In this document: in pieces, positions 2,213-39,488 of the stretch
How the letters are laid out: each line of letters starts with the position of its first letter
How positions within the stretch are numbered: position 1 is the first letter of the stretch
NCBI GenBank assembly: GCA_018667575.1
Contig: JABIUA010000003.1
Span: 1-40,964, forward strand
Length of the DNA: 40,964 nt
DNA from: Methanobacteriota archaeon
GTDB lineage: Archaea > Thermoplasmatota > Poseidoniia > Poseidoniales > Poseidoniaceae
Direction of reading: 5' to 3'
Position numbers and translations under genes: made by a program
The notes under the pieces: generated by a model
Databases searched by the model: none
The model's input: the letters and a program-made list of their open reading frames with translations, nothing else
Told to the model about the DNA's origin: nothing

Positions 2213-3313
2213 TCATGCAAGTCCTAATTCTGCTAACTTTTCTGGAAGGTAAGTTTCGGTTACGAAATCTAGACCATATTTAGCAAGAGATTGCTGTTCA
2301 GCCTTCTTACCTAATTCTAACATCATATTAATTTGGTCTTGCCACCAACTATCAGCAAATCTAGGGTCTGAAAGTTCAGCATTTAGCGCTTCAACATCTT
2401 TCTTTGATAGGTCATCACTTGGAAGGTCATAGGCTACAATATCATCGGCTGTTATTCCAAGGTAAGTTGCACTTGGAGTTGCTAAGTATTCTGAAATATG
2501 GGCGGTTTTAATTGCACCATAAGCAATTGAAGCAAATATTCTGAAAGACCACGGGTCACCGTCGAGGAATACAACAACAGGTAAATCCCATTCTTCGCTC
2601 ATACGCTTAATTATTCGTCGAGTGGACCTTGCAGGCTGACCCTTAAGATGTAGTAAACCGCATCTATATTCTTCATCAAATCCATTTTCTATCAATCTGT
2701 CAAACATTCCACCAGTCTCGATGGCCATAATGAAGTCAATATCGTTCTCTAACAACTCGATTTTCTCAGATTCTACGTTATATGGAACACCGTATCCAGA
2801 GTCTCCAACATCATCTCTAGCATTGATTCGCATCCACTCACCACGGCGATTTCTTTCACGAAGGGTTAGGTTTCCAATCATCCTAGCACCGTCTTCTTCA
2901 GGACGTAATTTGAAATCTTCACGAAGACATTTTGTAACAATTTCTAAATCTTCTGCTAAATTATTAGATTCGTTTTGACTTCCAAATTTACCAAGTCCCC
3001 AAGACTCAGAGATATAGTACATTTCTCTTAGAGTGGAGGATTTCCCAGCATCAATCATTTCTTCAATGAACTCAACGACATACAATGCTCTAAGCAATTG
3101 TTTTGCAGAACCTAGACTTGTTGCATCTCGAATAGACCTTTTTTTACCATATTTGTAAACTCCTAATTTCGCATCAAATCCAATATTATTTTTTGTCCTA
3201 ACAGGCAGTGTCATTGTAGGGGGTTCTCCGCCTACGATTTTGTCATACATTTCCTTTACAACTGAGTGCATAGCTTTTTTTGTTTCTTCCGATGAAAATC
3301 TTTGAACCATCAT
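2213..3313 (-). CDS. top6A: DNA topoisomerase VI subunit A (Spo11-like)
   Basis: Toprim-type [27 protein letters not shown] and YLGITADDI motifs; adjacent to subunit B. Confidence 0.95.
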
Positions 3314-5418
3314 AATTCACCTCCAAAAAGAGTACTCTGTCCACTTGGGGGCGGAACTTTTGGTTCTCCTAGAGATGCAATAATTTCGTCTAAGTCAATT
3401 TCAGGTGATTCCGAGTCAGCCGTGGAGTCATCACTTGATTCAACTTGCTCACCACTTTCAAGGTTCATTTCTATCATGATATTTTCCTGATTCCTTATTT
3501 CTTCGAGATATTTTTCATCCATCTTCATGGCACCAATGACTTCTTGAGAGCCGCGATAGAAGATATCAGTTTCCACCCAATCTCCTTTTTCTAGGCCACT
3601 GAGACTGTAGGAGATGACAATTCGTTCACCAGGTTCCAAAGTTTGTAATTTCCATGCCCAAACTCCCATTGCTTCTTTTCTTCCACCAGTGTCATTGTCA
3701 ACTAATTTTGCACCAGATTTTTCAGGCCAATTTGCCAAAATTGTGTATGCTCTTGAACGTGAAGTGTAATTGTATAATGTGATAGAGACATCAGTTTGCT
3801 TGGTTTCTTTATTCCATACAGTACTAGTTTCTCCAATTACTGCAGACATAATCCTAGTTATCGATCCAGAAAGGTCCGGTATTGGCTTATCTAGAATCTC
3901 TGCAGACTTTGCAGCAATCGCAGGTAAAATATCATTTATTAGTTCGAACTTTTCTTGAGTCTTCGCCATCTTCTTCTTCTTCTCGAGGTGCTTTCTAAGG
4001 CCACGACCCATTTCTAGCATTGCCTTTCTCGCTTCTTCAATGACTTCTTCATTTTCAGCCAATGCCTCTTTCGCTTCAGATGTAAATTGAACATTCGTAC
4101 TAGCTAAGTGTACTAGAATTGCAGCAGGTCCCTTCGGTACTCCTTTAGCACCGGGTTGGTCCAATCCGTATTGCCGCCAATCTACACTTTCAATAGCCTT
4201 GGTCAAAAGGCAACCACCTTGTTGGTACATTAGAGGAACTCGATTTGCAAATCTGAGAACTTCTACAGCCTTATCAGCAGGCATGTTCCCTCCAAAGATT
4301 AGTCCAACTTCTATTTGGTAAGGATTACCTTGAGAAACGTTTGGTGCTCTTGTCATGGTGGATATAAATCTTGAATCAATAGTTTTTGATAGACCTTTTT
4401 TGATAAGCATTTCTTCAATTGGCGAGAGACAATTTGTTGGGGGATTTAACATCTTGACAGGCTTTCCATTGAACATTTTTTCTCCTTGGAATGCCTCGAG
4501 TAAAGCACGAATATGGTCTGGTTTCATCTGTTTTGGCTTTACACCGACATCGAGTTCAGCAGCAGCGCATAATTCCTTAGCAGCTCTGTTGGAAACTCCA
4601 GAGAAATTCATTCGAAGAAAAACCGATAATCTAGAGTCAGTTGACTCGCTGAGCATACGTTGAAGTTGGCCAAGTTCAATTCCATGAGGGTGAGGCTTTA
4701 TCGATTCTACTTTGGTTGGTAATCTTTCAGTGACTCTAGGCCAATGATGGATTTCACCTTCAGGGTCTATGAAATTAATTTCAGCATGAGGATTAACAAT
4801 GCTTGTCATTCTAAGGTATTGCCAAACACTCTGTCGGCCTTTTTGGTATTTAGCCTTTAATTGGGTTGTAACTTCTAGACCATGTTGCTTCATAGTTCCA
4901 TCTTTAAGTTCCCAAAGTTCTCGACCTTGGTTACTCTTAACGGCCTTATTTTTTCTAGTATCCAGTCCAATATCTACGACAGCAGCAGTTGATTCTGTAG
5001 AAATTTTAGAACGTACATGAGTTGGTTTGCCGGTGGTTAATTGGCTATACATTACAACTCCAGTAATTCCTATTCCTTGTTGACCTCTAGATTGCCTAAT
5101 AGCATGAAATCTAGATCCGAATAATAACTGTCCAAACACCTTTTCAATACTCTTTTGCGGGATTCCAGGGCCATTATCTTCGACTTTTAATTCAATGATA
5201 TCTTTCTTTAAATCGAGTTTTTTGATTTGGATATTAATTTCTGGTAGTATACGAGCCTCTTCACAAGCATCGAGCGCATTATCCACGGCTTCCTTGACAG
5301 CAGTAATCAAAGACCTTGATAGGGAATCAAACCCAAGAAAATGTTTATTTTTCTCAAAAAATTCAGATATTGCGACTTGTTTTTGATTGGATGCGAGTTT
5401 TTGTGCTATACCAGCCAT
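3310..5418 (-). CDS. top6B: DNA topoisomerase VI subunit B (GHKL ATPase)
   Basis: EAVDNALDACEEA, VEDNGPGIP and GQQGIGITG GHKL motifs; start placed at MAGIAQKLASNQKQ (5418) rather than ORF start 5526; 4-bp overlap with top6A. Confidence 0.95.
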   Translation of the reverse strand: MAGIAQKLASNQKQVAISEFFEKNKHFLGFDSLSRSLITAVKEAVDNALDACEEARILPEINIQIKKLDLKKDIIELKVEDNGPGIPQKSIEKVFGQLLFGSRFHAIRQSRGQQGIGITGVVMYSQLTTGKPTHVRSKISTESTAAVVDIGLDTRKNKAVKSNQGRELWELKDGTMKQHGLEVTTQLKAKYQKGRQSVWQYLRMTSIVNPHAEINFIDPEGEIHHWPRVTERLPTKVESIKPHPHGIELGQLQRMLSESTDSRLSVFLRMNFSGVSNRAAKELCAAAELDVGVKPKQMKPDHIRALLEAFQGEKMFNGKPVKMLNPPTNCLSPIEEMLIKKGLSKTIDSRFISTMTRAPNVSQGNPYQIEVGLIFGGNMPADKAVEVLRFANRVPLMYQQGGCLLTKAIESVDWRQYGLDQPGAKGVPKGPAAILVHLASTNVQFTSEAKEALAENEEVIEEARKAMLEMGRGLRKHLEKKKKMAKTQEKFELINDILPAIAAKSAEILDKPIPDLSGSITRIMSAVIGETSTVWNKETKQTDVSITLYNYTSRSRAYTILANWPEKSGAKLVDNDTGGRKEAMGVWAWKLQTLEPGERIVISYSLSGLEKGDWVETDIFYRGSQEVIGAMKMDEKYLEEIRNQENIMIEMNLESGEQVESSDDSTADSESPEIDLDEIIASLGEPKVPPPSGQSTLFGGEL

Positions 5419-5547
5419 ACTTAGACCTCCACATCTGGTCCTCCTTCGTCCCAATGACGTCGGGCCAGTAGTGATATTGTTACTCGCATCTCGACGGTTT
5501 TTAATCCTAATACTATCGTTAATCAATCAACGCCCATTTCTGGACCT

Positions 5548-8446: not shown

Positions 8447-9376
8447 ATGGATGAACAACAACAAGTAGAAGATATTGTAAAATGCAGTGACTGTGGAAGT
8501 AGAAGTTTGACACGTGATGAAACACGTGGTGAGGTCGTTTGTGACGACTGTGGATTGGTTTTAGAAGATAATGTAATTGATCAAGGCGCAGAATGGAGAG
8601 TTTTCTCACCAGAGCAAGGAGACCAAAGAGCCCGTACTGGTGCACCTATGACTGTCATGCTCCACGACAAAGGATTGTCCACCGATATCGATTGGCAAAA
8701 CAAAGACTACTCTGGAAAAACAATTAATTCTAGATATAGATCACAATTCTACAGAATGAGGAAATGGCAGAAGCGAAGCCGTGTTTCAAACGCTACAGAG
8801 AGAAATCTCGCAATGGCTCTAGCGGAATTGGATAGAATGGCAAGTCGCCTAGAATTACCAAAATCCGTTAGAGAAGCAGCGGCTGTAAACTACAAGAAAG
8901 CAGTGGACAAGCGTTTGATTCGTGGTCGTTCCATCGAAGGAGTTGCAGCAGCGTCACTTTATGCAGCATGTAGACAATGTGGTGTACCACGTACTCTTGA
9001 TGAGATTGGGCAAGCATCTCGTACAGGCAGAAAAGAAATTGGCCGTACATACAGATTCATGGTTAGAGAATTGAAGATGAAGATAATGCCAACTGGACCA
9101 GAAGATTATATCTCAAGATTCTGTTCAGGATTAGGATTAGATGCTGAAGTTGAAGCTAAGGCATATGAATTGATCAAGGCGGCTCAAGAAAAAGAGTTGA
9201 CAAGTGGAAGAGGTCCAACAGGTATCGCTGCTTCAATTATCTATATCGCTTCAGTTCTTTGTGGAAAGAGAAGAACTCAAAGAGAAGTCGCAGAAGTTGC
9301 TGGAGTTACCGAAGTAACAATCAGAAACCGATACAAAGAATTGATTCAAAACTTGAATATCGAACTAGATATTTGA
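8447..9376 (+). CDS. tfb: Transcription initiation factor IIB (TFB)
   Basis: N-terminal zinc ribbon CSDCGSRS...CDDCG, two cyclin-fold repeats, [17 protein letters not shown] and [16 protein letters not shown]. Confidence 0.97.
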
Positions 9377-23550: not shown

Positions 23551-26358
23551 TTATCCATAGATTATCGCTGGACTAAGAGGCATTGCCGAGTTAATACGTC
23601 CAGATTCATCTAAACTGTCTTCGCTTGAAATAATCACTACTTCTTCTAGTCCAAGTTCCGCTCCCAAGAAATCTTTTCTCTGTGAAAGTAGTTCTAATTC
23701 ATCCATAGAGCCTGAAATTAGTAATTTAGATTTATCATCCCACTTGAATATTTGAGGTAGCATTTTCTTGCCCCAAAATCCAAAAATTTCTCCAGAGTTT
23801 TCTAGTTCTGCTAGTTCAGAATCTTTTAATTTCGACATAAATGACTTAACATTTCCACCTTTGTTAACAAATTCGATTGCCATTACAGCAAGTTTCCTTT
23901 TCCACACTGGCGATATGGTTAGAGTAAGTTTTCTTGCAGGACCATCCAAGTGACGTTCAGCAATCGACTTGACTTTACGAGCATTTTCAAGAATATTTCT
24001 CATGACATATTCATCATCTAGTGCTGATTGTTCTTTTGTCGTAAGTTTTTCTAGAGGGGAATAAACAGTATTTGCGATAAGAGTATCATTTCCAATTCTC
24101 CTCCACCATTCTTCAGCCAAGTGAGGCGTCGATATCGAAAGGAGATGCGACCATACGGAGAGTAGTTGCTTTCCTAATTCGCCATTATTTCCGCCACGTC
24201 TTATGTACCAGTTCATGTCTTTGATAAGTTCATAATGGGATATTTCAACGGCCCTTCTCAAATCATAATTATCCATAGATGTTTGAAATTCCTCGACACG
24301 TTGCTTCATTCTTGCCTCTAGCCATAAGTCAATTTTACTCTCTTTGTCGCCCCAAGAAAGAATCTGATTTGGAATTGTTAAAAGTTGTAACATTACCCTA
24401 TGATTGGCTTCTAAGGCTGTGTCCGACCAGTCCATGCCAGCAGTAGGATTTGCAGCAAATAAGATGAACAATCTAACGGTATCAGCACCGAACCTTTCAA
24501 TCATATCTTCTGGTGAAACAGTATTTCCTAGGGACTTGCTCATCTTTGCAGAGCGCAATCCCAATTCTCCGTTACAATGCGGGCAAGGACTCCCCATGTG
24601 GTCGACCGAAAGGGTGATCGAACAGGTTTCACACCATGGCGCTTGCTTGTTGACCATTCCTTGACAGAGTAGTTCATTGAATGGCTCATCAATAGAATGT
24701 AGTCCGATGTCACGAAGAGCCTTGGTCCAGAATCGCGCATAGATCAGGTGCATCTGAGCATGTTCGATTCCACCACAGTAGAAATCAACATTCATCCAAT
24801 GATTGACAATATCTTTCGAGAAACATTGAGAGTTATTTTGTGCATCAGTATAACGCATAAAGTACCATGAAGAATCAACAAAAGTATCCATTGTATCAGT
24901 TTCTCTTCTTGCCATAGAGCCACATTTAGGGCATTCCACATTGACAAATTCTTCACAACCAGCCAGTGGATTTCCTTCTCCAAAAGAGACATTTCTTGGT
25001 AGTTCGACAGGTAATTGTTCTTCAGGAACAGGTATTACTCCACATTCTTTACAGTGAATAACAGGTATTGGAGTCCCCCAATACCTCTGTCGTGAAACCA
25101 ACCAAGGCCTAATTTTCCAATTGATTGTTTTATTTCCCTTTCCATCTTTTTCAAGAGCATTGATAACTGCAGCCTTGGCATCCTCTCCGTAAAGGCCATC
25201 ATATCCTTCAATAGGGGAATTTACCATCCATCCCAGGTCAGTTTCTGCCTTTTTCATTTCTCCAGATGTTTGGTCGTTCTCTTTCATTACCAATGCACGC
25301 TTAATTTTGATACCATATTTGCTTGCGAAATCGAAATCCCTTTCATCATGGGCAGGAACAGCCATTACTGCACCAGTTCCATATGATGCAATCACAAAGT
25401 TACCAGTCCAAATAGGTATTTTTTCTCCTGTCAATGGGTGAATTGCATTTTTCCCAAGCGGAGCGCCCTTTTTCTTATTCATGTTTTTGATTCTATCAAA
25501 TTCAGTCATTACAGAAACTTCATCATATAATTCTCGCCATCCGGATTCGAATTCTGTTCCTTCAGCAAATGACTTTGAGAATTCATGCTCGGGTGCTAGA
25601 GTGATGAAAGTAGCTCCAAAAAGAGTATCAGGCCTGGTTGTGAATACTTTGATTTCTTCTCCTGAACCTTCTACAGTAAACATTATTTCAGCACCTTCAG
25701 AGCGACCAATCCAATCTTTTTGCATTGCAGTAACGTTTTCAGGGAAGTCGATGTCATCTAATCCATCCACTAATTGCTGAGCATATTTTGGAGTATCAAG
25801 GAACCATTGGTTCATTTCTTTTTGAATCACAGGTCCATTACATCTCCAGCATCTTCCGGCCTTTATTTGTTCATTGGCAAGAACAGTATTACAGTGTTCA
25901 CACCAGTTTACAGGTGCAAATTCTTGGTATGCTAGTCCGTTTTCCATGAATTTGGTGAAAAACCATTGATTCCATTTGTAGTAATTAGGGTCATGGCTTT
26001 TTACCATTCTTGACCAATCATAAGAGAACCCCATTCGTTTAATTTGTCCAGTAATTGAAGCCATATTCCTTTCTGTGATGTCATAAGGATGTCCACCTTC
26101 TTTGATAGCAGCATTTTCCGCTGGCATTCCAAATGAATCAAATCCAACAGGGTACAATACATCATAACCCATCATTCTCTTATATCGGGCGACAGCATCA
26201 CCAATGGAGTAATTTCTAACATGACCCATATGCATTTTCCCTGAAGGATATGGGTACATTTCCAAACAGTAAAAAGGCGGTTTATCGTCACTTATTTTAG
26301 CTTCAAAGATTTTTGACTCAGTCCATTTTTGTTGCCAATAGACTTCATCAACGGTCAT
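23551..26358 (-). CDS. leuS: Leucyl-tRNA synthetase, bacterial-type
   Basis: MYPYPSGKMHMGHVRNYSIGDAVARYKR, DWIGRSEGAEI, TTRPDTLFGATF, SRQRYWGTPIPVIHC, KMSKSLGNTVSP; ORF open to TTG at 26382, ATG at 26358. Confidence 0.95.
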   Translation of the reverse strand: MTVDEVYWQQKWTESKIFEAKISDDKPPFYCLEMYPYPSGKMHMGHVRNYSIGDAVARYKRMMGYDVLYPVGFDSFGMPAENAAIKEGGHPYDITERNMASITGQIKRMGFSYDWSRMVKSHDPNYYKWNQWFFTKFMENGLAYQEFAPVNWCEHCNTVLANEQIKAGRCWRCNGPVIQKEMNQWFLDTPKYAQQLVDGLDDIDFPENVTAMQKDWIGRSEGAEIMFTVEGSGEEIKVFTTRPDTLFGATFITLAPEHEFSKSFAEGTEFESGWRELYDEVSVMTEFDRIKNMNKKKGAPLGKNAIHPLTGEKIPIWTGNFVIASYGTGAVMAVPAHDERDFDFASKYGIKIKRALVMKENDQTSGEMKKAETDLGWMVNSPIEGYDGLYGEDAKAAVINALEKDGKGNKTINWKIRPWLVSRQRYWGTPIPVIHCKECGVIPVPEEQLPVELPRNVSFGEGNPLAGCEEFVNVECPKCGSMARRETDTMDTFVDSSWYFMRYTDAQNNSQCFSKDIVNHWMNVDFYCGGIEHAQMHLIYARFWTKALRDIGLHSIDEPFNELLCQGMVNKQAPWCETCSITLSVDHMGSPCPHCNGELGLRSAKMSKSLGNTVSPEDMIERFGADTVRLFILFAANPTAGMDWSDTALEANHRVMLQLLTIPNQILSWGDKESKIDLWLEARMKQRVEEFQTSMDNYDLRRAVEISHYELIKDMNWYIRRGGNNGELGKQLLSVWSHLLSISTPHLAEEWWRRIGNDTLIANTVYSPLEKLTTKEQSALDDEYVMRNILENARKVKSIAERHLDGPARKLTLTISPVWKRKLAVMAIEFVNKGGNVKSFMSKLKDSELAELENSGEIFGFWGKKMLPQIFKWDDKSKLLISGSMDELELLSQRKDFLGAELGLEEVVIISSEDSLDESGRINSAMPLSPAIIYG

Positions 26359-26386
26359 ATCTTCTTCAGTCAAAGTTACCAACGCC

Positions 26387-30003: not shown

Positions 30004-33000
30004 TTAGAGTCCTAAATCTTCTAAGTTTATCATAGTTGGAATAGCAGCATCTTGTTCGGCTTTTTGTTGTAATTCATACTGTTTCCATTGTGGAGTTTCA
30101 GTTGTAATAGGTTCAATCCAACCCAGAGATTTTGCTTCCTCTAATTGACCACTTGCCACATAATGGTCAATCCAAGCCAATCGACGTTCTTCTTCTTCTG
30201 AGAAAGCCATGTCCATCATATTTTCTTCAGCCTTTACTCTCATTAGTTTCTTCTTACCAGCGGCCTTTGCGAACTGAGCCACTATGATTATAGAGAGCAA
30301 GAATACGATTACCCCCGACATAATGATTAGCGTTTGACTACCAGAAGTTGAGCCTGATTGACCCGAATCCTCCGAAGAATCATCTTGATTCGGATTTGAT
30401 TTGATGTTACAAACTACTGATCCAGTCCTACCTTCAGATACTTCAGGATCCCAGGGACAAGGGTCAATTGTATCTGACGCACCATCTCCATCAGAGTCGA
30501 TACAACCCCACTGGCCGTTGGAAGTTGTCTTCCTCGATGTGCCAGCGACATCAGGGCAATCATCTGGTTGATAAGCGCCCAAGGAGAAATTATCTCCAAA
30601 GCCATCGCCATCAATATCACTCCATTGTGATGGCTCTAATATGAAAAAGTCAGGTTTGAAGTAGCCGCTTGCATTATCTCCAAAACCATCTCCATCGGTA
30701 TCATTCCATTGTTCACTTTCTTCAGGGAAAGCATCACCGAATTGTTCTCTAAGAGTGATTATACGAGTTTGGTCTTGCTCGTCTACTATAGTATAATTTG
30801 TCCAGTAGTAATTATCTCCGTACCCATCACCATCTTGGTCAGTCCATTGATTTTCGTCATTAGGAAATACATCATCAACATCAGCCCAGCCGTCGCCATC
30901 CAAGTCAGGACAACCGAATCTATTCATCTCCAGTGACTTTCCATATTCAGTTAGACAATCATCGCCTCCTGGCCGGTCTACTTCATCACCATACCCATCG
31001 CCGTCTTGGTCAGACCATTGCAGTGGGTTTTCTGGAAAAGCGTCATCAGGGTCAACAAATCCATCACCATCAGTATCAGGGCAACCTCTAGTTGTAGGGT
31101 TTGGCGAAGAACCTGCACGAGAGGGGCACATATCGCCATTTACTGCGCCAGTTTGATTATTGTCTCCAAAACCATCACCGTCAATATCACTCCATTGAGT
31201 CGGCTCAAATTGGAACGCATCACCATTATTACCGGCCGAATTATCTCCATATCCATCGCCATCAGTATCTCTGCATTGAGTTGGGTCGTCAGGGAAAATA
31301 TCGGGATTATTTCCATTTTGGTTATCTCCGCCACAATCTAGAGAATCTCCGTCTCTATTTTCCCATTGTGTACTATCATTTGGGAAAGGGTCTCCTTGAT
31401 TTGAATACCCATCACCATCCGAGTCGAGGCATCCTAATCTATCGATCGACGAAGTACCAAATTCATTTGGACATTCATCAGGATTATTTCCAGTTAGATT
31501 CTCTCCATATCCATCTTGGTCTTTATCACACCACTGTGTTGGGTCTAATGGTAATCCGTCAGCTTGGCAATAACCGCTGGCATCAACCGCGCCCCAATTT
31601 GCAGTCGGGTCAGACCACCCATCTCCATCACTATCAATACATCCAAATCTATCATATTTTGAATCACCAAAGGTCATAATGCATCCGTCACCAACATCAC
31701 TCTGCGGATTATCTCCGTACCAGTCGCCGTCACTATCAATCCATTGAGTTCTATCCAAAGGAAACGCATCCACTTCTGTTGCCATGTTAATCAAATCTCC
31801 CGGCCACAAACTTGGTCTAATTTCAGTCCAACTCGAGTTTGCGAAATTATCGCCATATCCGTCGCCATCGGTATCATTCCATTGTGTTGGATTATTTGGG
31901 TAAGCATCTCCTCTTTGATTAAGATGGAAGAAGTTCTGGTCTTCATCAAAAAAGTAATTGTCTCCATGACCATCACCATCACTATCAATCCACTGCTCGA
32001 TATCATTAGGAGCCCAATCACCTCCATCAGACCATCCGTCACCATCCCCATCAGGGCATCCGAAGCGGTCTTGTGTTGAACTTCCAGCATCAAGCGGGCA
32101 CTCATCGGGTTGTAATGCTGGAGCAGGATTATCTCCATATCCATCGTTATCGGTATCATTCCATTGGGTTCCATCAGTAGGGAATGCATCTACAACACCG
32201 TCTCCTTGATCTGAAGTATTATACCCATCATTATCTTCATCGATATCAGCAATCCAATAGTGTATGCCTTCATCATTTCGACCATATGCAGTCACTAGTT
32301 TCATACCATCTGAACTCCAACTTAATCCATTCACTTGTCCACAGTTATTACCACCACAACCATTTGGTGAAGGGGCTCCAAAGAAATCAACTTGGGCGCC
32401 AGAATCAGTATAGAAAATTTTGACTGAGCCACCATCTCCCTGATAGTAAGAATGGCCATTTGCAACCTGTCTACTATCGGCTGAGAAATCTGCAGATAAA
32501 CAAGAAGAAGTAGTTGTTTTTTCCCATATACGATTTACTCCCGAAGAAGTGAACTCATACATGTCAAAACTAGCACTACCTCCTTCCCATCCACCGCACA
32601 TCGAAATATAATTTCCATCCGGGGACCAATCGATGTCATTTATCTGATTTGGTGGGCTAGTGACAGTGAAAACCGTAGCCCTTGATGAGACATTGACGAT
32701 GAAGAAATCTCCATTTCCAGCCACTGCAATAAGGGAGCCATCTGGGGAAAAGGTTGAGGAGTAAAAACGGTCTTCTCCGTTAGGATTAATTCCGTTACCT
32801 AGCTGCAGGCCATCGGACACTTTGATCAAAAGTACTTGTCCATTTGTACCTCCATTGCCAGACCGAGTAATAGATACCGCAACCAGGCTACTATCTGGCG
32901 AAAATTCAACATCATTGACAAATTCTCCACCTCCAACATCGACGCTTATTGAACCATGAACCGACGAAATGTTTGAAGTGTAGTAAATGTTTATTGTATC

Positions 33001-33465
33001 ATCATCAAGGCCTGCTGCAACATAGTTTCCATCCGGAGAGTATGCTACAGAAGTGACTTCTCCGTTGCCTATGGCTTGTACAGATTTCAGGTTTACAAAT
33101 GAGGTGGCATTCCAAATTCGCACCCATCCATTTTCATCACCAGTGACGATATTGACACCGTCTGATGAGAAGTCAACATCATTGTAATCTTGGCTTGAAG
33201 TAATTGAGAATTCAAGCTGAAAATTGGGATTGCTAGCAGCCCATCCATCATTGAAATCAGAGGTTCCATCGTTATCTCTATCTGGGCAACCATCCCTGTC
33301 TACCGAAGAGGTTCCATATGCGAATGGACAATCATCAGAAGAGTCAGAAACTCCATCGCCATCCGAGTCGGCAGAGACAAAAGTCGATATAGCCATCAAA
33401 AAGAATAGTCCAGCGACAAAAACGCTCGACCATCTAGATGACACTATTGGCGGTATGAAGAACAT
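30004..33465 (-). CDS. Secreted, membrane-anchored protein: WD40-like beta-propeller plus TSP type 3 Ca-binding repeats
   Basis: Signal peptide; repeats such as VTSVAYSPDGNYVAAGLDDDTINIYYT; many DSDGDGYGDN units; C-terminal TM LIIMSGVIVFLLSIIIVAQFA and short cytoplasmic tail. Confidence 0.9.
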   Translation of the reverse strand: MFFIPPIVSSRWSSVFVAGLFFLMAISTFVSADSDGDGVSDSSDDCPFAYGTSSVDRDGCPDRDNDGTSDFNDGWAASNPNFQLEFSITSSQDYNDVDFSSDGVNIVTGDENGWVRIWNATSFVNLKSVQAIGNGEVTSVAYSPDGNYVAAGLDDDTINIYYTSNISSVHGSISVDVGGGEFVNDVEFSPDSSLVAVSITRSGNGGTNGQVLLIKVSDGLQLGNGINPNGEDRFYSSTFSPDGSLIAVAGNGDFFIVNVSSRATVFTVTSPPNQINDIDWSPDGNYISMCGGWEGGSASFDMYEFTSSGVNRIWEKTTTSSCLSADFSADSRQVANGHSYYQGDGGSVKIFYTDSGAQVDFFGAPSPNGCGGNNCGQVNGLSWSSDGMKLVTAYGRNDEGIHYWIADIDEDNDGYNTSDQGDGVVDAFPTDGTQWNDTDNDGYGDNPAPALQPDECPLDAGSSTQDRFGCPDGDGDGWSDGGDWAPNDIEQWIDSDGDGHGDNYFFDEDQNFFHLNQRGDAYPNNPTQWNDTDGDGYGDNFANSSWTEIRPSLWPGDLINMATEVDAFPLDRTQWIDSDGDWYGDNPQSDVGDGCIMTFGDSKYDRFGCIDSDGDGWSDPTANWGAVDASGYCQADGLPLDPTQWCDKDQDGYGENLTGNNPDECPNEFGTSSIDRLGCLDSDGDGYSNQGDPFPNDSTQWENRDGDSLDCGGDNQNGNNPDIFPDDPTQCRDTDGDGYGDNSAGNNGDAFQFEPTQWSDIDGDGFGDNNQTGAVNGDMCPSRAGSSPNPTTRGCPDTDGDGFVDPDDAFPENPLQWSDQDGDGYGDEVDRPGGDDCLTEYGKSLEMNRFGCPDLDGDGWADVDDVFPNDENQWTDQDGDGYGDNYYWTNYTIVDEQDQTRIITLREQFGDAFPEESEQWNDTDGDGFGDNASGYFKPDFFILEPSQWSDIDGDGFGDNFSLGAYQPDDCPDVAGTSRKTTSNGQWGCIDSDGDGASDTIDPCPWDPEVSEGRTGSVVCNIKSNPNQDDSSEDSGQSGSTSGSQTLIIMSGVIVFLLSIIIVAQFAKAAGKKKLMRVKAEENMMDMAFSEEEERRLAWIDHYVASGQLEEAKSLGWIEPITTETPQWKQYELQQKAEQDAAIPTMINLEDLGL
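30450..32240. repeat. Degenerate DNA repeats encoding TSP3 Asp-rich units (coding repeat)
   Basis: Recurrent atctccatatccatcgccatc / ccattg blocks, in frame in the minus-strand ORF. Confidence 0.85.
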
Positions 33466-33550: not shown

Positions 33551-35068
33551 GTGAGCGCAGGCATCCCGAAGGTCAATATCGCGGTACAAGACCGCGTATT
33601 GCTCCACTTATTCGAAAATGATGAGCAAGCTGACCGCTACCTAGCAGAAGTGGCTTTGACCAGGCCAGGAATAGCCGAATCCTGTGCGTTACACCCTCCT
33701 AATGTAAGTAGAACAATGAGAGATTTACTGAAGAAACAATACGTGTCTGAACATACTAGAAATATTCGTGGTGAAGAAAGACGACAAAAAACATGGCAAC
33801 TCACAGATGAGGGCCGTACAGAAGCGTTGCACAAACACAAATCACTTGGTAAAAATAAGGTAGTTTTGAGGGATGAAGGTGGCGAATTACTTGAAGTCGA
33901 AGCACTAGAAGCCGCTGAAAGATTAGCGACAGACATTTCTTTGTTACAGATTTTAATGCATGCTCAACATGAAGGAGTTTTGACTTATGGTGATATTAGG
34001 TTTGGTAAGATTAAACATTCAAAACAAGAGGAGATAGCTCCCCCAGGGCGATTGACAGCATTAACAGGTGTACATTCGACCTACAATAACCAACCTCCAA
34101 ACACTAGACCAGTACACGGGCGCAAAGAGCAGATTGATGATTTGAAATCTTGGTTTTCAAGTCGTAAACCTTGCGCTGTCGTCCATGGGATTGCGGGTAT
34201 TGGTAAATCTACCTTAGTCGCTCATTGGCTCAAACAAAATCTAGAAATAAACCCTGGACTTTCAATTTGTTGGTATCCCTGTCAACCATGGGACCGAGCA
34301 TTAGGAATTGCTACCAGTTTACTTCATCGATTTGGTATAGATGAATCTCATGACCCCTACAATTTAATCGAAACTTTACCTCTACAACCAGCAGGGAAAA
34401 TCGATGTAGATAATTGGAGAAGAAGACTTACAGCATACCTAACTGATGCTGATACAATACGTGAGCGTTTCAAAGATGATTCAGGAGGACCCCCTCCTTA
34501 TTGGCTAATCATCTTAGACGATGTACATCACATAGAATCTGAAGCGAAGGATTTACTCGGAGCATTATTACAAATATCCACTAAAACTCCATTGAGATTA
34601 TTACTTATTTCTAGAACAAAGCCAACAATTTATGATAGAAGAGATGTACATACAAGAGGCATAGTCACAGAATTATCTTTGCAGGGTTTGACAAAACCTG
34701 AAATTAAAAATTGGTTGAAGAATTTTGATTCTGGTGATAAATACGAAGTTGAGCAAGTTCATGAGAAAACTGGTGGACATCCATTGGCATTGGAACTTTT
34801 CGAATTATATGGGCAAGAAACGCATGTAGATTGGCTACAATTTCTCGATGATGAAATCATTTTACGTTTGCCAGAATTAGAGCGTAAGTTATTGTTAGAA
34901 CTTGCTAAATCGGATGCTCCGTTGAATTGGAATAAATTGGCTGATTCGGTAGGCTGGAAAGGTAATCCACCCAAAGATTTGATTCAACACGGTCTATTGT
35001 TGGAATTAGAAGACGGCATGTGGTTGCACGAAGCCTTGAAAGAAAGGCTTCTGCGTGATGTGAATTAA
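33551..35068 (+). CDS. Winged-helix + STAND/AAA-type ATPase protein
   Basis: N-terminal MarR-like wHTH (CALHPPNVSRTMRDLLKKQYVSEHTRNIRGEERRQKTWQLTDEGR); Walker A GIAGIGKSTLVAHW; Walker B WLIILDDVHH; LLLISRTKPT; GTG start. Confidence 0.87.
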   Translation: MSAGIPKVNIAVQDRVLLHLFENDEQADRYLAEVALTRPGIAESCALHPPNVSRTMRDLLKKQYVSEHTRNIRGEERRQKTWQLTDEGRTEALHKHKSLGKNKVVLRDEGGELLEVEALEAAERLATDISLLQILMHAQHEGVLTYGDIRFGKIKHSKQEEIAPPGRLTALTGVHSTYNNQPPNTRPVHGRKEQIDDLKSWFSSRKPCAVVHGIAGIGKSTLVAHWLKQNLEINPGLSICWYPCQPWDRALGIATSLLHRFGIDESHDPYNLIETLPLQPAGKIDVDNWRRRLTAYLTDADTIRERFKDDSGGPPPYWLIILDDVHHIESEAKDLLGALLQISTKTPLRLLLISRTKPTIYDRRDVHTRGIVTELSLQGLTKPEIKNWLKNFDSGDKYEVEQVHEKTGGHPLALELFELYGQETHVDWLQFLDDEIILRLPELERKLLLELAKSDAPLNWNKLADSVGWKGNPPKDLIQHGLLLELEDGMWLHEALKERLLRDVN

Positions 35069-35075
35069 TCTAAGA

Positions 35076-35405
35076 TTAGAAATCATCAGCATTCATGTGG
35101 TCGTCAATCCACTTGAGTAATTGAGGCTTAGGCATTGCTCCACTTTGCTTTGAAACAATGTTTCCGTTGTGATATAGGAAAAGTGCTGGTATGCCACGGA
35201 CACCAAGTTTTGCAGCATTTGCTGGATTTGTATCCGTATCTACCTTTGCGATCAAGATTTCTCTCTCTCCAGCAACTTGCTCTAATACCGGTGCAATCGC
35301 TTTACAAGGTCCACACCAAGGTGCCCAGAAATCTACTAATACCCATTCATTATCATTAACAGAGGTTTCGAATTCTCCATCGGTTACTGCACGTACTTCT
35401 CCCAT
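35076..35405 (-). CDS. Thioredoxin
   Basis: WVLVDFWAPWCGPCKAIAPVLEQVAGE; start set at MGEVRAV (35405). Confidence 0.95.
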   Translation of the reverse strand: MGEVRAVTDGEFETSVNDNEWVLVDFWAPWCGPCKAIAPVLEQVAGEREILIAKVDTDTNPANAAKLGVRGIPALFLYHNGNIVSKQSGAMPKPQLLKWIDDHMNADDF

Positions 35406-35520
35406 GTTCTCACTAACACATCCTAATGCAGGAGTATTATGAGTCTTTGTGAGAAAAATAATACTAAAAATATACACAATACTCATGAGAAGGGATTGCT
35501 TGGGCTAATCAGGTCTGAAT

Positions 35521-36204
35521 ATGATAATCGCTCCAAGTGTACTTACTGCCGACCTTTCGAATTTAGCAGTAGCCTGTAAAGAAGCAGTTGATGCAGGACT
35601 TGAATGGCTTCATTTGGACATAATGGATGGAAATTTTGTTCCTAATTTGACCTTCGGGCCTCCGGTGATTAAGTCACTTCGCAAAGCTCTTGGTGATGGC
35701 CCAGTTTTTGATGCCCACTTGATGATATCAAATGCCGAAGAATGCTATATGGATTATATCGAAGCAGGTTGTAATCATCTTTCAGTTCACATTGAAGCCG
35801 CCACTCATCTCCATAGGTTGGTGACGGCGATTAGAGATGGTGGAGCATCAGTAGGTATCGTAATCAATCCAGCAACACCAATTGAGGGAGTTTTAGAAGT
35901 TTTATCAGAGATTGATTTAGTACTTGTAATGAGCGTTAATCCTGGTTTTGGTGGCCAATCATTCATCTCAAGTGTTGAGCGTAAAATTCGTAGATTAAAG
36001 CAAGCCATTGACGAGCAAGTATCAAACGGCGGCCGTCCAGTTCAAATTCAAATTGATGGTGGCGTTAAAGCACATAACATTGGCGAAATCGCCTCTTGGG
36101 GAGCCAGTAACTTTGTAGTTGGTTCAGGTTTATTCAATAATCGCGCAAATGTTGCAGATAATTTGGCTGAAATTATGTCTAATTACGAACAATACAATGA
36201 TTAA
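35521..36204 (+). CDS. rpe: Ribulose-phosphate 3-epimerase
   Basis: IIAPSVLTADLSNL, HLDIMDGNFVPNLTFGPPVI, VMSVNPGFGGQSFI, QIDGGV motifs. Confidence 0.95.
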   Translation: MIIAPSVLTADLSNLAVACKEAVDAGLEWLHLDIMDGNFVPNLTFGPPVIKSLRKALGDGPVFDAHLMISNAEECYMDYIEAGCNHLSVHIEAATHLHRLVTAIRDGGASVGIVINPATPIEGVLEVLSEIDLVLVMSVNPGFGGQSFISSVERKIRRLKQAIDEQVSNGGRPVQIQIDGGVKAHNIGEIASWGASNFVVGSGLFNNRANVADNLAEIMSNYEQYND

Positions 36205-36236
36205 AATCAGTTTAAAGATTATTCATAGTGATAGTT

Positions 36237-37319
36237 ATGCGAGTTCTTGTGACATCGTTGCTCTTTCCACTCCCAACAAATGTTGCACGAGGGACTTTTG
36301 TTAGCGACCATGTTGAATTGCTAAAGAGTAATGGTCACGATGTAAGGGTTGTAAATCCGTTGCCTCGAATGTTTCAGTATCAAGAATTCAGTCGTTCAAC
36401 TCACACAGGAGTCGCAAAGGCACCAAAGAGTTTCAAACACGGTGAAGTCAAAGTACTCAGTCCTCGTTTTTGGGGCCTCCCCGGTCATCCATTACCATTA
36501 CTGACTGCAAATAGTGTCAAACGTAGCTCGCGAAGAATCGAGAAATGGTTAGGCAATTGGCGCCCCGATGTGATAATTTGTCATACTCTGTGGCCTGTAG
36601 CTGAACTAGCAAATAAACTGTCTAAGCGATGGAAAATACCGTGGATTGCGGTTGTTCATGGCCATGATTTTGATGTCGGAATAAATGATAAAAACACATC
36701 CAAATCTATTAGCAAATTAGCCAGTATAGCAGACCACTTGGTCACAGTATCACAAAGATTAGATGAGATTTCACAACAGGTTAGGAGTCAAGGGCATTCT
36801 GTAATACCCTGTCATAGTGCGGTAGAAAGTGAATGGCGAAAACCAATGAAAAATATTGGCGGAAGGTGGCGTAAAGATAGTTTGAATATCCTATTTCCAT
36901 CCGACCCAAGAAGACCCGAAAAGAATCACCTTTTGGCCTTGCAAACCGGTGAAGAATTAGAAAGACGTGGATGGGTAATTGGTATGACCACATTGCGTCA
37001 GCAACCTAGAAGTATAGTCTGGGATAGAATGTTGGTTGCTGATTTGACTTTGATTACCTCCAAGCGCGAATCAGGTCCTTTAGTTGCTAGGGAATCAATA
37101 CAATGTGGAACACCGGTAGTTTCTGTTGATGTTGGAGATGTATCTGAGTATTTACCTGAATTCTGCGTATCTTCGGAGTATGATCCAATACAACTTGCAG
37201 ACACCTGTGAAGCAGCATTAAAGCATGATTGGAGTAAAGGATTTCAGATTCCTAAAAGATTTACTCCTCAGGTAGTGGCTCAACAGTGGGAGACATTGCT
37301 TGAATCCCTTGTGGAATGA
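36237..37319 (+). CDS. Glycosyltransferase, GT4-like
   Basis: MRVLVTSLLFPLPTNVARGTFVSDHVELL N-terminus; TSKRESGPLVARESIQCGTPVVSVDVGDVSEYL donor-binding motif. Confidence 0.9.
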   Translation: MRVLVTSLLFPLPTNVARGTFVSDHVELLKSNGHDVRVVNPLPRMFQYQEFSRSTHTGVAKAPKSFKHGEVKVLSPRFWGLPGHPLPLLTANSVKRSSRRIEKWLGNWRPDVIICHTLWPVAELANKLSKRWKIPWIAVVHGHDFDVGINDKNTSKSISKLASIADHLVTVSQRLDEISQQVRSQGHSVIPCHSAVESEWRKPMKNIGGRWRKDSLNILFPSDPRRPEKNHLLALQTGEELERRGWVIGMTTLRQQPRSIVWDRMLVADLTLITSKRESGPLVARESIQCGTPVVSVDVGDVSEYLPEFCVSSEYDPIQLADTCEAALKHDWSKGFQIPKRFTPQVVAQQWETLLESLVE

Positions 37320-38751
37320 AGTAGAATAATCCTAGCCCACAAACTGCAATCCATGAACCAGTGGCAAAACCATAGCAAGATACCATTGAAAGGCATATCG
37401 CTAAGGAGAACTCTTTCTTTTTCTTTAGCAATAAATCCCAGTTAGAAGAAAGATGAATCGATAAGAAAAATAGAAACGATGAGGAAATCGTTGATGCTAT
37501 TGCAGCAGCAAAGAGTCCAGCACCTTGAGAATTATTCGCCTGCCAATCGATTAGCAAGTAACCAATAATCAACGCAAATAAGACTACTAGGCCGATGAAT
37601 AAAGTAAATTTCCATGGTTTTTCTCCAGCTTGTAATGCAGTATATGTTGGAGTTGATAATAAGGTTAAACACCAACCAGCGAGTAAAACCATGAATAAAT
37701 CGACTGCAGAAGCACCAAGAGAACCATCTACGTATTGTTCTGGAAAAGCCAAGGGTAAGAGGAAGTAAACAATTCCAGCGCCAGCAAATAACCCGACTGG
37801 TAGCAGCCCAAGGCATAAGTTCAACGAATTTTCTAACGCGGATTGAAATTTTATCGCATCTGTTCTAACTCCTCCCAGTACCGGTAGCAATGCAGCGCGT
37901 AACGCCTGCGGCACTACTAACCCAGCCAGCCATGCCAGTTGAGCGACATGAAAAATCGCTGCCGCATCAACACCAAGTTCACCAGCCACAAGGAATTTTT
38001 CGATTCTAACGACATATGGTAGAACTCCAAGTGTAATAGCAAATGGAAGTGCTTGAATGAGTAATGTTTTGTTATCGCTCCATGCAGTACCTAAAGAAGA
38101 CCAATTAGAACTCTCTGAGATAGAACCTCTTGGTAGAATGCTATACGAAAGACCTACTGCAATTACTAATCCTCCAATTGCCCCGATAAGAAAAATTATT
38201 GCAAAAGCAGTAACAGAGGTACTTTCTATGGAAAAAAGAATATAGTATCCAACTACAGTTATCGCTCTTTCAATTACTTTTGACCATGCTTCTAACTTAG
38301 CCTGGCCTGCCGCTCTAAGCCCTGAGCGAGGTGCGTATGAAGCGATATGGACTAGAGCGATCGACCCACAAATAACTATCAAACCAATGTATTCTTTCCA
38401 ATTTTCAATCATCAGTGGAACTCCAATTATGGCAAAAAGAATGAATGGTATTGAGCAAATAATTTGCAGTCGGTAAACTCTTATTATCGACGACCAAATT
38501 TTACTAACATCATTGGCTCCATCTCTCGCAATTAGGGTAGGTAGTCCCAAATCAATTATCAAAAAGAATGTTGCAAAAGCATCGAGTGCAATTATGTAAA
38601 TCCCATATGATTCAGTCAGGAGAGCCTTGGTTAGGACAATTTGACCCGCTAAGGCTAGAAAAATAGCAATCAAGTCCGAGCCAATCAACCAACTCGAGTC
38701 ACGACCCATCTGAGGTTTTCGGGTTTTGGAAGAGATTACAGCCTCGCCCAT
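37261..38751 (-). CDS. Polysaccharide biosynthesis flippase (MOP/Wzx-like)
   Basis: ~12 TM segments; DLGLPTLIARDGANDVSKIWSSIIRVYRLQ. Confidence 0.82.
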   Translation of the reverse strand: MGEAVISSKTRKPQMGRDSSWLIGSDLIAIFLALAGQIVLTKALLTESYGIYIIALDAFATFFLIIDLGLPTLIARDGANDVSKIWSSIIRVYRLQIICSIPFILFAIIGVPLMIENWKEYIGLIVICGSIALVHIASYAPRSGLRAAGQAKLEAWSKVIERAITVVGYYILFSIESTSVTAFAIIFLIGAIGGLVIAVGLSYSILPRGSISESSNWSSLGTAWSDNKTLLIQALPFAITLGVLPYVVRIEKFLVAGELGVDAAAIFHVAQLAWLAGLVVPQALRAALLPVLGGVRTDAIKFQSALENSLNLCLGLLPVGLFAGAGIVYFLLPLAFPEQYVDGSLGASAVDLFMVLLAGWCLTLLSTPTYTALQAGEKPWKFTLFIGLVVLFALIIGYLLIDWQANNSQGAGLFAAAIASTISSSFLFFLSIHLSSNWDLLLKKKKEFSLAICLSMVSCYGFATGSWIAVCGLGLFYFIPQGIQAMSPTVEPLPEE

Positions 38752-38838
38752 ATTTTGTCTTTATCGGTTCTAAACTTCAACCATCCGTGTAAGCACAGAT
38801 TGAAAGCAGGGTTTCACTACGGCTCAACAGGTGCGGGT

Positions 38839-39159
38839 ATGGTAGCGGCTGAATGGGTTGAATCTGAAGTTCTCAAAGCAGTGCCTGAGGCATTGGTTGA
38901 AGTAATCGATCTGCATGGTTCAGGTGACCATTTTCATGTTCGAATTATCACTGATAGTTTTGAAGGAATGAGACCACTGCAGAGGCAAAGAATGATTCTA
39001 GCAGTTATGAAGCAACATATACCAAGCCCGATTCATGCTCTTGATTTGAAGTGCATGACTCCTAAGCAAGCAGAAACTGCAGGTGATACTGCATTTGACC
39101 CACATGGCGGAGGCCGTGGAATTCACATTAACCGAATTAACAGACAAAAAAAAGAGTGA
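38839..39159 (+). CDS. BolA family protein
   Basis: VIDLHGSGDHFHVRIITDSFEGMRPLQRQRMILAVMKQHIPSPIHALDLKCMTPKQA; start moved to MVAAEWVESEVLKAVPEA (38839). Confidence 0.9.
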   Translation: MVAAEWVESEVLKAVPEALVEVIDLHGSGDHFHVRIITDSFEGMRPLQRQRMILAVMKQHIPSPIHALDLKCMTPKQAETAGDTAFDPHGGGRGIHINRINRQKKE

Positions 39160-39164
39160 GATAA

Positions 39165-39488
39165 ATGGATTGGACAGAACAAGAAATACAAGCAATAGTA
39201 GATGAACACGCTTTGGTGTTGTTCATGAAAGGAACGCCAAATGAACCACAATGCGGTTTCTCGAATAGAGCCGCACAAGTTCTTCAACAACTTGGAGAAC
39301 CATTTGCAGCAGTCAATATTTTGACAGACCCTAGGGCGATACCTTCGGTATGTAACTGGGCAGATTTCCCTACAATGCCTCAAGTTTATGTTCACGGAGA
39401 ACTCATTGGCGGGTCTGACATTGCTCTAGAGATGCTTCAAGATGGAAGCCTCAGAGAAATGTTTGATGCTGGACGAGACTCCAATTAA
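39165..39488 (+). CDS. Monothiol glutaredoxin, CGFS type (Grx4/GrxD-like)
   Basis: VLFMKGTPNEPQCGFSNRAAQVLQQLGEPFAAVNILTD...WADFPTMPQVYVHGELIGGSDIALEMLQDGSL. Confidence 0.95.
   Translation: MDWTEQEIQAIVDEHALVLFMKGTPNEPQCGFSNRAAQVLQQLGEPFAAVNILTDPRAIPSVCNWADFPTMPQVYVHGELIGGSDIALEMLQDGSLREMFDAGRDSN

Follow-up and report, generated by a model that had tools for sequence, protein, structure and literature searches.

A conserved BolA and CGFS glutaredoxin gene pair in the marine archaeal order Poseidoniales

BolA proteins are known for a KH-like fold and for regulatory roles in other organisms. Two histidines of S. meliloti YrbA, His32 and His67, bind metal and have been described as also serving the cluster in BolA-Grx heterodimers (PMC7538681). 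In archaea, orthologues of BolA (BOLA4) and Grx5, as well as the clustering of BolA and Grx genes, have already been published (PMC6558291). As far as its accessible parts go, the literature returned by our search for BolA or glutaredoxin with Poseidoniales holds no description of the pair reported here, nor of an order-wide operon, its SUF context or changes in its glutathione site. We regard the pair as an ordinary, long-inherited one, and the question of glutathione as the only part that could surprise. Through this locus, a defined Fe-S trafficking pair belongs to the core genome of an abundant order of marine archaea and is tied to the change of SUF type at the order's base, where SufE comes in and SufU goes out; the locus also offers a natural system for asking whether CGFS glutaredoxins require glutathione at all.

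The two genes and their locus

The window, by which we mean the whole stretch of 40,964 nucleotides that was analysed, contains the following features:

2216-5526, Topo VI A and B
8447-9373, TFB
33551..35068, plus strand, HTH protein with an AAA_16 ATPase domain (PF13191), a conserved neighbour in 31 loci of 16 genera
35076..35486, minus strand, thioredoxin (TIGR01068, above cut-off), a conserved neighbour
35521..36204, plus strand, ribulose-phosphate 3-epimerase (TIGR01163, above cut-off), upstream of the pair and conserved in both families
38839..39159, plus strand, BolA_H-type protein of 106 aa (PF01722, predicted structure, Foldseek, alignment)
39160..39164, plus strand, intergenic gap of 5 bp (from the sequence and the gap range in the order's loci)
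39165..39488, plus strand, CGFS monothiol glutaredoxin of Grx4/Grx5 type, 107 aa (TIGR00365, structure model, residue survey)

The sequence-only reading had described a BolA gene and a CGFS glutaredoxin gene lying 5 bp apart on the same strand in a genome with TFB and Topo VI, and the ORF coordinates and curated family models bear this out; both TFB and Topo VI lie inside the window, which makes the host archaeal. Two further genes of the window, both on the minus strand, deserve mention. One is a leucyl-tRNA synthetase (23554-26382) with a PF13603 editing domain, which we take to be associated with bacterial-type leucyl-tRNA synthetases; a transfer is possible for this gene. The other encodes a WD40-repeat protein of 1153 aa (30007-33465), here in an archaeal genome.

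By our reading of the ORFs, the BolA gene starts with the ATG at 38839 and its stop codon ends at 39159; an alternative, TTG-started ORF opens at 38755, but aligned relatives begin at the ATG instead. The product matches PF01722 (57.4 bits, cut-off 25.7, E 1.8e-15), and its AlphaFold model (pLDDT 84) has a well-predicted core, with solved BolA proteins as the nearest structures in Foldseek (E 5e-7). The HFHV segment noticed earlier is indeed kept, as residues 31-34, and both H31 (in GDHFHV) and H66 (in IHAL) are invariant among 38 aligned sequences. Since these two residues match YrbA His32 and His67 by position, we predict them to be the cluster-ligating histidines of BolA. The assignment to the BolA_H type follows from the BolA domain and fold, the histidine of the [H/C] loop and the invariant C-terminal histidine. 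From about residue 81, the protein continues into a C-terminal extension (FDPH...GIHI, residues 81-106) that is modelled with a pLDDT of about 49-61. Its pattern, F-x-P-H...G-[IV]-H-[IV], hardly varies in the order and recurs in part in genome G360, and the extension is missing from G307 and from the bacterial BolA proteins that we read.

The glutaredoxin gene starts with the ATG at 39165 and ends at 39488. Its product belongs to the monothiol CGFS glutaredoxins by its match to the curated model TIGR00365, "Grx4 family monothiol glutaredoxin" (118.6 bits, cut-off 117.1), its active site and its GLRX5-like fold. The CGFS motif, likewise retained as the earlier reading had it, occupies residues 30-33, and Cys30 to Ser33 are invariant among the 38 aligned sequences. 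The AlphaFold model has a pLDDT of 95, and its best match in the PDB is 2wul, human GLRX5 with GSH and FeS (TM 0.88, rmsd 1.1).

Distribution and origin of the pair

Our sample of the order comprised 242 genomes from 22 genera and two families, many of them incomplete; BolA was found in 217 of these and Grx4 in 224, each in all 22 genera. The seeming absences of BolA in G127 and G015 are contig ends. In every locus read in the order that holds both genes, BolA precedes Grx, usually with a gap of 5 bp (from -4 to +9), and a few genomes contribute twice to these loci. The spacing of 5 bp is consistent with co-transcription, conservation across 22 genera excludes chance, and both the linkage and the co-occurrence by which a functional Grx-BolA pair is recognised are found here. 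The co-occurrence survey that the sequence-only reading had called for thus returned an order-wide pair. The succession of HTH-ATPase, thioredoxin, epimerase, BolA and Grx is common to both families. Given this distribution and synteny, the pair is an operon that was already present in the order's ancestor and has been inherited vertically since. In most loci of family f1, the epimerase gene is separated from BolA by a glycosyltransferase and a flippase (36228-38751 in the window), whose homologues lie downstream of the pair in some other genomes.

Beyond the order, the pair is scarce. Neither gene was found in any of six genomes of the sister order, and in a phylum sample of 296 genomes, both occur outside the order only in G307 and G360, where they are adjacent, with gaps of 125 and 221 bp when the starts chosen here are used. 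In the same sample, G270 gave a weak BolA match and G285 has Grx4 alone. The earlier proposal that a complete module had been transferred into an archaeon therefore stands in part: a gain would leave the pair missing, as it is, in the sister order and in nearly the whole phylum, whereas the idea of a recent or genome-specific event does not fit a pair whose locus is syntenic between the two families. Broadly vertical descent in archaea, which had been named as the outcome that would speak against transfer, is what we see within the order; across the phylum it is not.

Because the sister order lacks the pair, one might suspect that this genome alone acquired it recently or that the assembly is contaminated, but the same locus recurs in all 22 genera and the window itself also bears TFB and Topo VI, which makes such an origin vanishingly improbable; the order-wide distribution rules out a recent or single-genome transfer. 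With the pair missing from the sister order and nearly everywhere else in the phylum, the simplest history is a single old gain before the order's last common ancestor. The alternative, that the sister order and the remaining phylum lost it, is possible but would require many separate losses. The source of the gained pair was likely bacterial.

The trees set the order together with G307 and G360 on one side and bacteria, eukaryotes and haloarchaea on the other, with support of 100/100 for Grx and a similar split at 98/95 for BolA, where the outgroups are plasmid records and PDB sequences only, leaving out chromosomal haloarchaeal BolA and Grx, and where proteins as short as these resolve deep branches poorly. 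In both trees, the sequences of G307 and G360 are nested inside the order, next to genera g17 and g22, yet for Grx a topology in which the order forms a clade of its own is not rejected either (p-AU 0.257). Their placement suggests that the pair may have moved once more as a unit.

Proposed function and the glutathione question

Our preferred reading, to which we assign a probability of about 0.72, is that the operon encodes an Fe-S carrier that was gained once, probably from bacteria, and then passed on vertically beside a SufE-type SUF system. Most likely, BolA_H and the CGFS glutaredoxin would pair up as the known heterodimer bridged by a [2Fe-2S] cluster, the presumed ligands being His31 and His66 of BolA, Cys30 of the Grx and an external thiol. 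From the SufBCD scaffold, the heterodimer would probably receive clusters to hand on, for instance to the A-type carrier; alternatively, it might buffer clusters when surface seawater exposes the cell to oxidative or low-iron stress. The pair has been inherited alongside a SUF system that works without SufU.

The gene content of the order provides the setting for such a carrier. SufB and SufD, as well as SufE, are present in 16 of the 16 order genomes tested, in which no SufU/IscU was found (0/16), and 21 of 22 tested have an A-type carrier. SufU is present in the two sister-order genomes tested and in G307 and G360; SufE is absent from all eight genomes tested outside the order. In the genome of the window, a sufCBDSE operon lies on contig C83, unlinked to the BolA-Grx pair. 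The SufB of a relative (G002) is 62.7% identical to that of Paenibacillus and 44% identical to that of the sister order, so the SUF system also differs from the sister order's. The SUF content amounts to a clean swap at the order's base: SufE is in and SufU out in 16/16 genomes, and the sister-order genomes tested show the opposite state.

The pair occurs together with a SufE-type SUF system and an A-type carrier, which speaks for cluster delivery rather than for a primary role in sensing iron or redox state or in regulation, either similar to Fra2-Grx3 or as a BolA transcription factor. Such a role would agree with the KH-like fold of BolA and its regulatory functions elsewhere (PMC10051749), with the thioredoxin gene as a conserved neighbour, and with the conserved C-terminal extension (F-x-P-H...G-[IV]-H), which could bind a partner. 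However, the extension is predicted at low confidence, and no conserved regulator partner lies alongside, save the HTH-ATPase, which has no assigned role. We therefore consider regulation as the main function unlikely.

If Cys30, His31 and His66 ligate the cluster of the preferred carrier, one ligand remains, which is normally glutathione. Neither a GCS2-type nor a GshA-type glutamate-cysteine ligase was found in the 22 order genomes tested for each, with control genomes positive in both searches, and from their gene content, these archaea seem unable to make glutathione. At the positions of GLRX5 Arg97 and Lys101, in helix 3, the glutaredoxin of the window has Ile and Cys, as do 82 of the 91 loci in our residue survey; eight have basic residues and one is partly unreadable. 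In contrast, Arg97 is retained in all 10 bacterial and haloarchaeal glutaredoxins sampled and in human GLRX5, in which the K101Q change has been reported to prevent Fe-S binding (PMC7359084). With no ligase found and both contacts mostly lost, the usual glutathione ligand may be missing.

These observations make it possible, if still doubtful, that the order has a glutathione-free variant that arose after loss of the basic glutathione contacts in helix 3, the cluster being held by CoA, free cysteine, a protein cysteine such as the conserved Cys63, or imported glutathione. Other residues of the glutathione site are nevertheless kept, namely Lys22, Cys30, T70-x-P72 (TMP) and the GGSD loops; E. 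coli GrxD likewise has no Lys at the 101 position; and uptake of glutathione could still supply the ligand. Moreover, the eight loci with R/K or R/R at the two positions belong to g12, part of g14, and g18, and the g12 and g14 genomes also lack both ligases. Loss of the residues thus does not track loss of synthesis, which weakens the notion that Arg97 and Lys101 disappeared as a simple outcome of lost glutathione synthesis. The glutaredoxins of g14 and g18 with basic residues also bear a 5-residue insertion. It is with considerable reserve, then, that we propose that the order may run a Grx4-BolA carrier without making glutathione, in which the site has been partly replaced and the last [2Fe-2S] ligand comes from an internal cysteine or a different thiol.

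Comparison with known systems

The E. coli heterocomplexes of Grx4 (GrxD) with IbaG and with BolA resemble the archaeal pair in combining a BolA_H protein with a single-domain CGFS glutaredoxin, in their folds and in their ligand positions. Nevertheless, E. coli grxD is not adjacent to a bolA gene, the archaeal BolA has a C-terminal extension that the E. coli system lacks, and E. coli makes glutathione, whereas the order's genomes tested yielded no ligase. S. meliloti YrbA and SmGrx2 are also alike, with a BolA_H protein, two metal-binding histidines and a heterodimer with the sole monothiol glutaredoxin (PMC7538681). There, a BolA gene is near grxD on pSymB, but a 243-bp ORF separates them, and SmGrx2 keeps the equivalents of Arg97 and Lys101, unlike most glutaredoxins of the order.

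Among archaea, the glutaredoxin of the haloarchaeal Natronorubrum (L098) is a monothiol protein of the same superfamily, but it differs in having a CGYS motif and in keeping Arg97; Haloferax has a GCS2-family protein. Bacterial bolA-grxD pairs, for instance in Sphingomonas and on Polaromonas pE5SP1, where the pair lies inside a suf cluster, are similar in gene order and short spacing. The Polaromonas cluster is SufU-type and includes the pair, whereas the system here is SufE-type and the pair is not linked to it.
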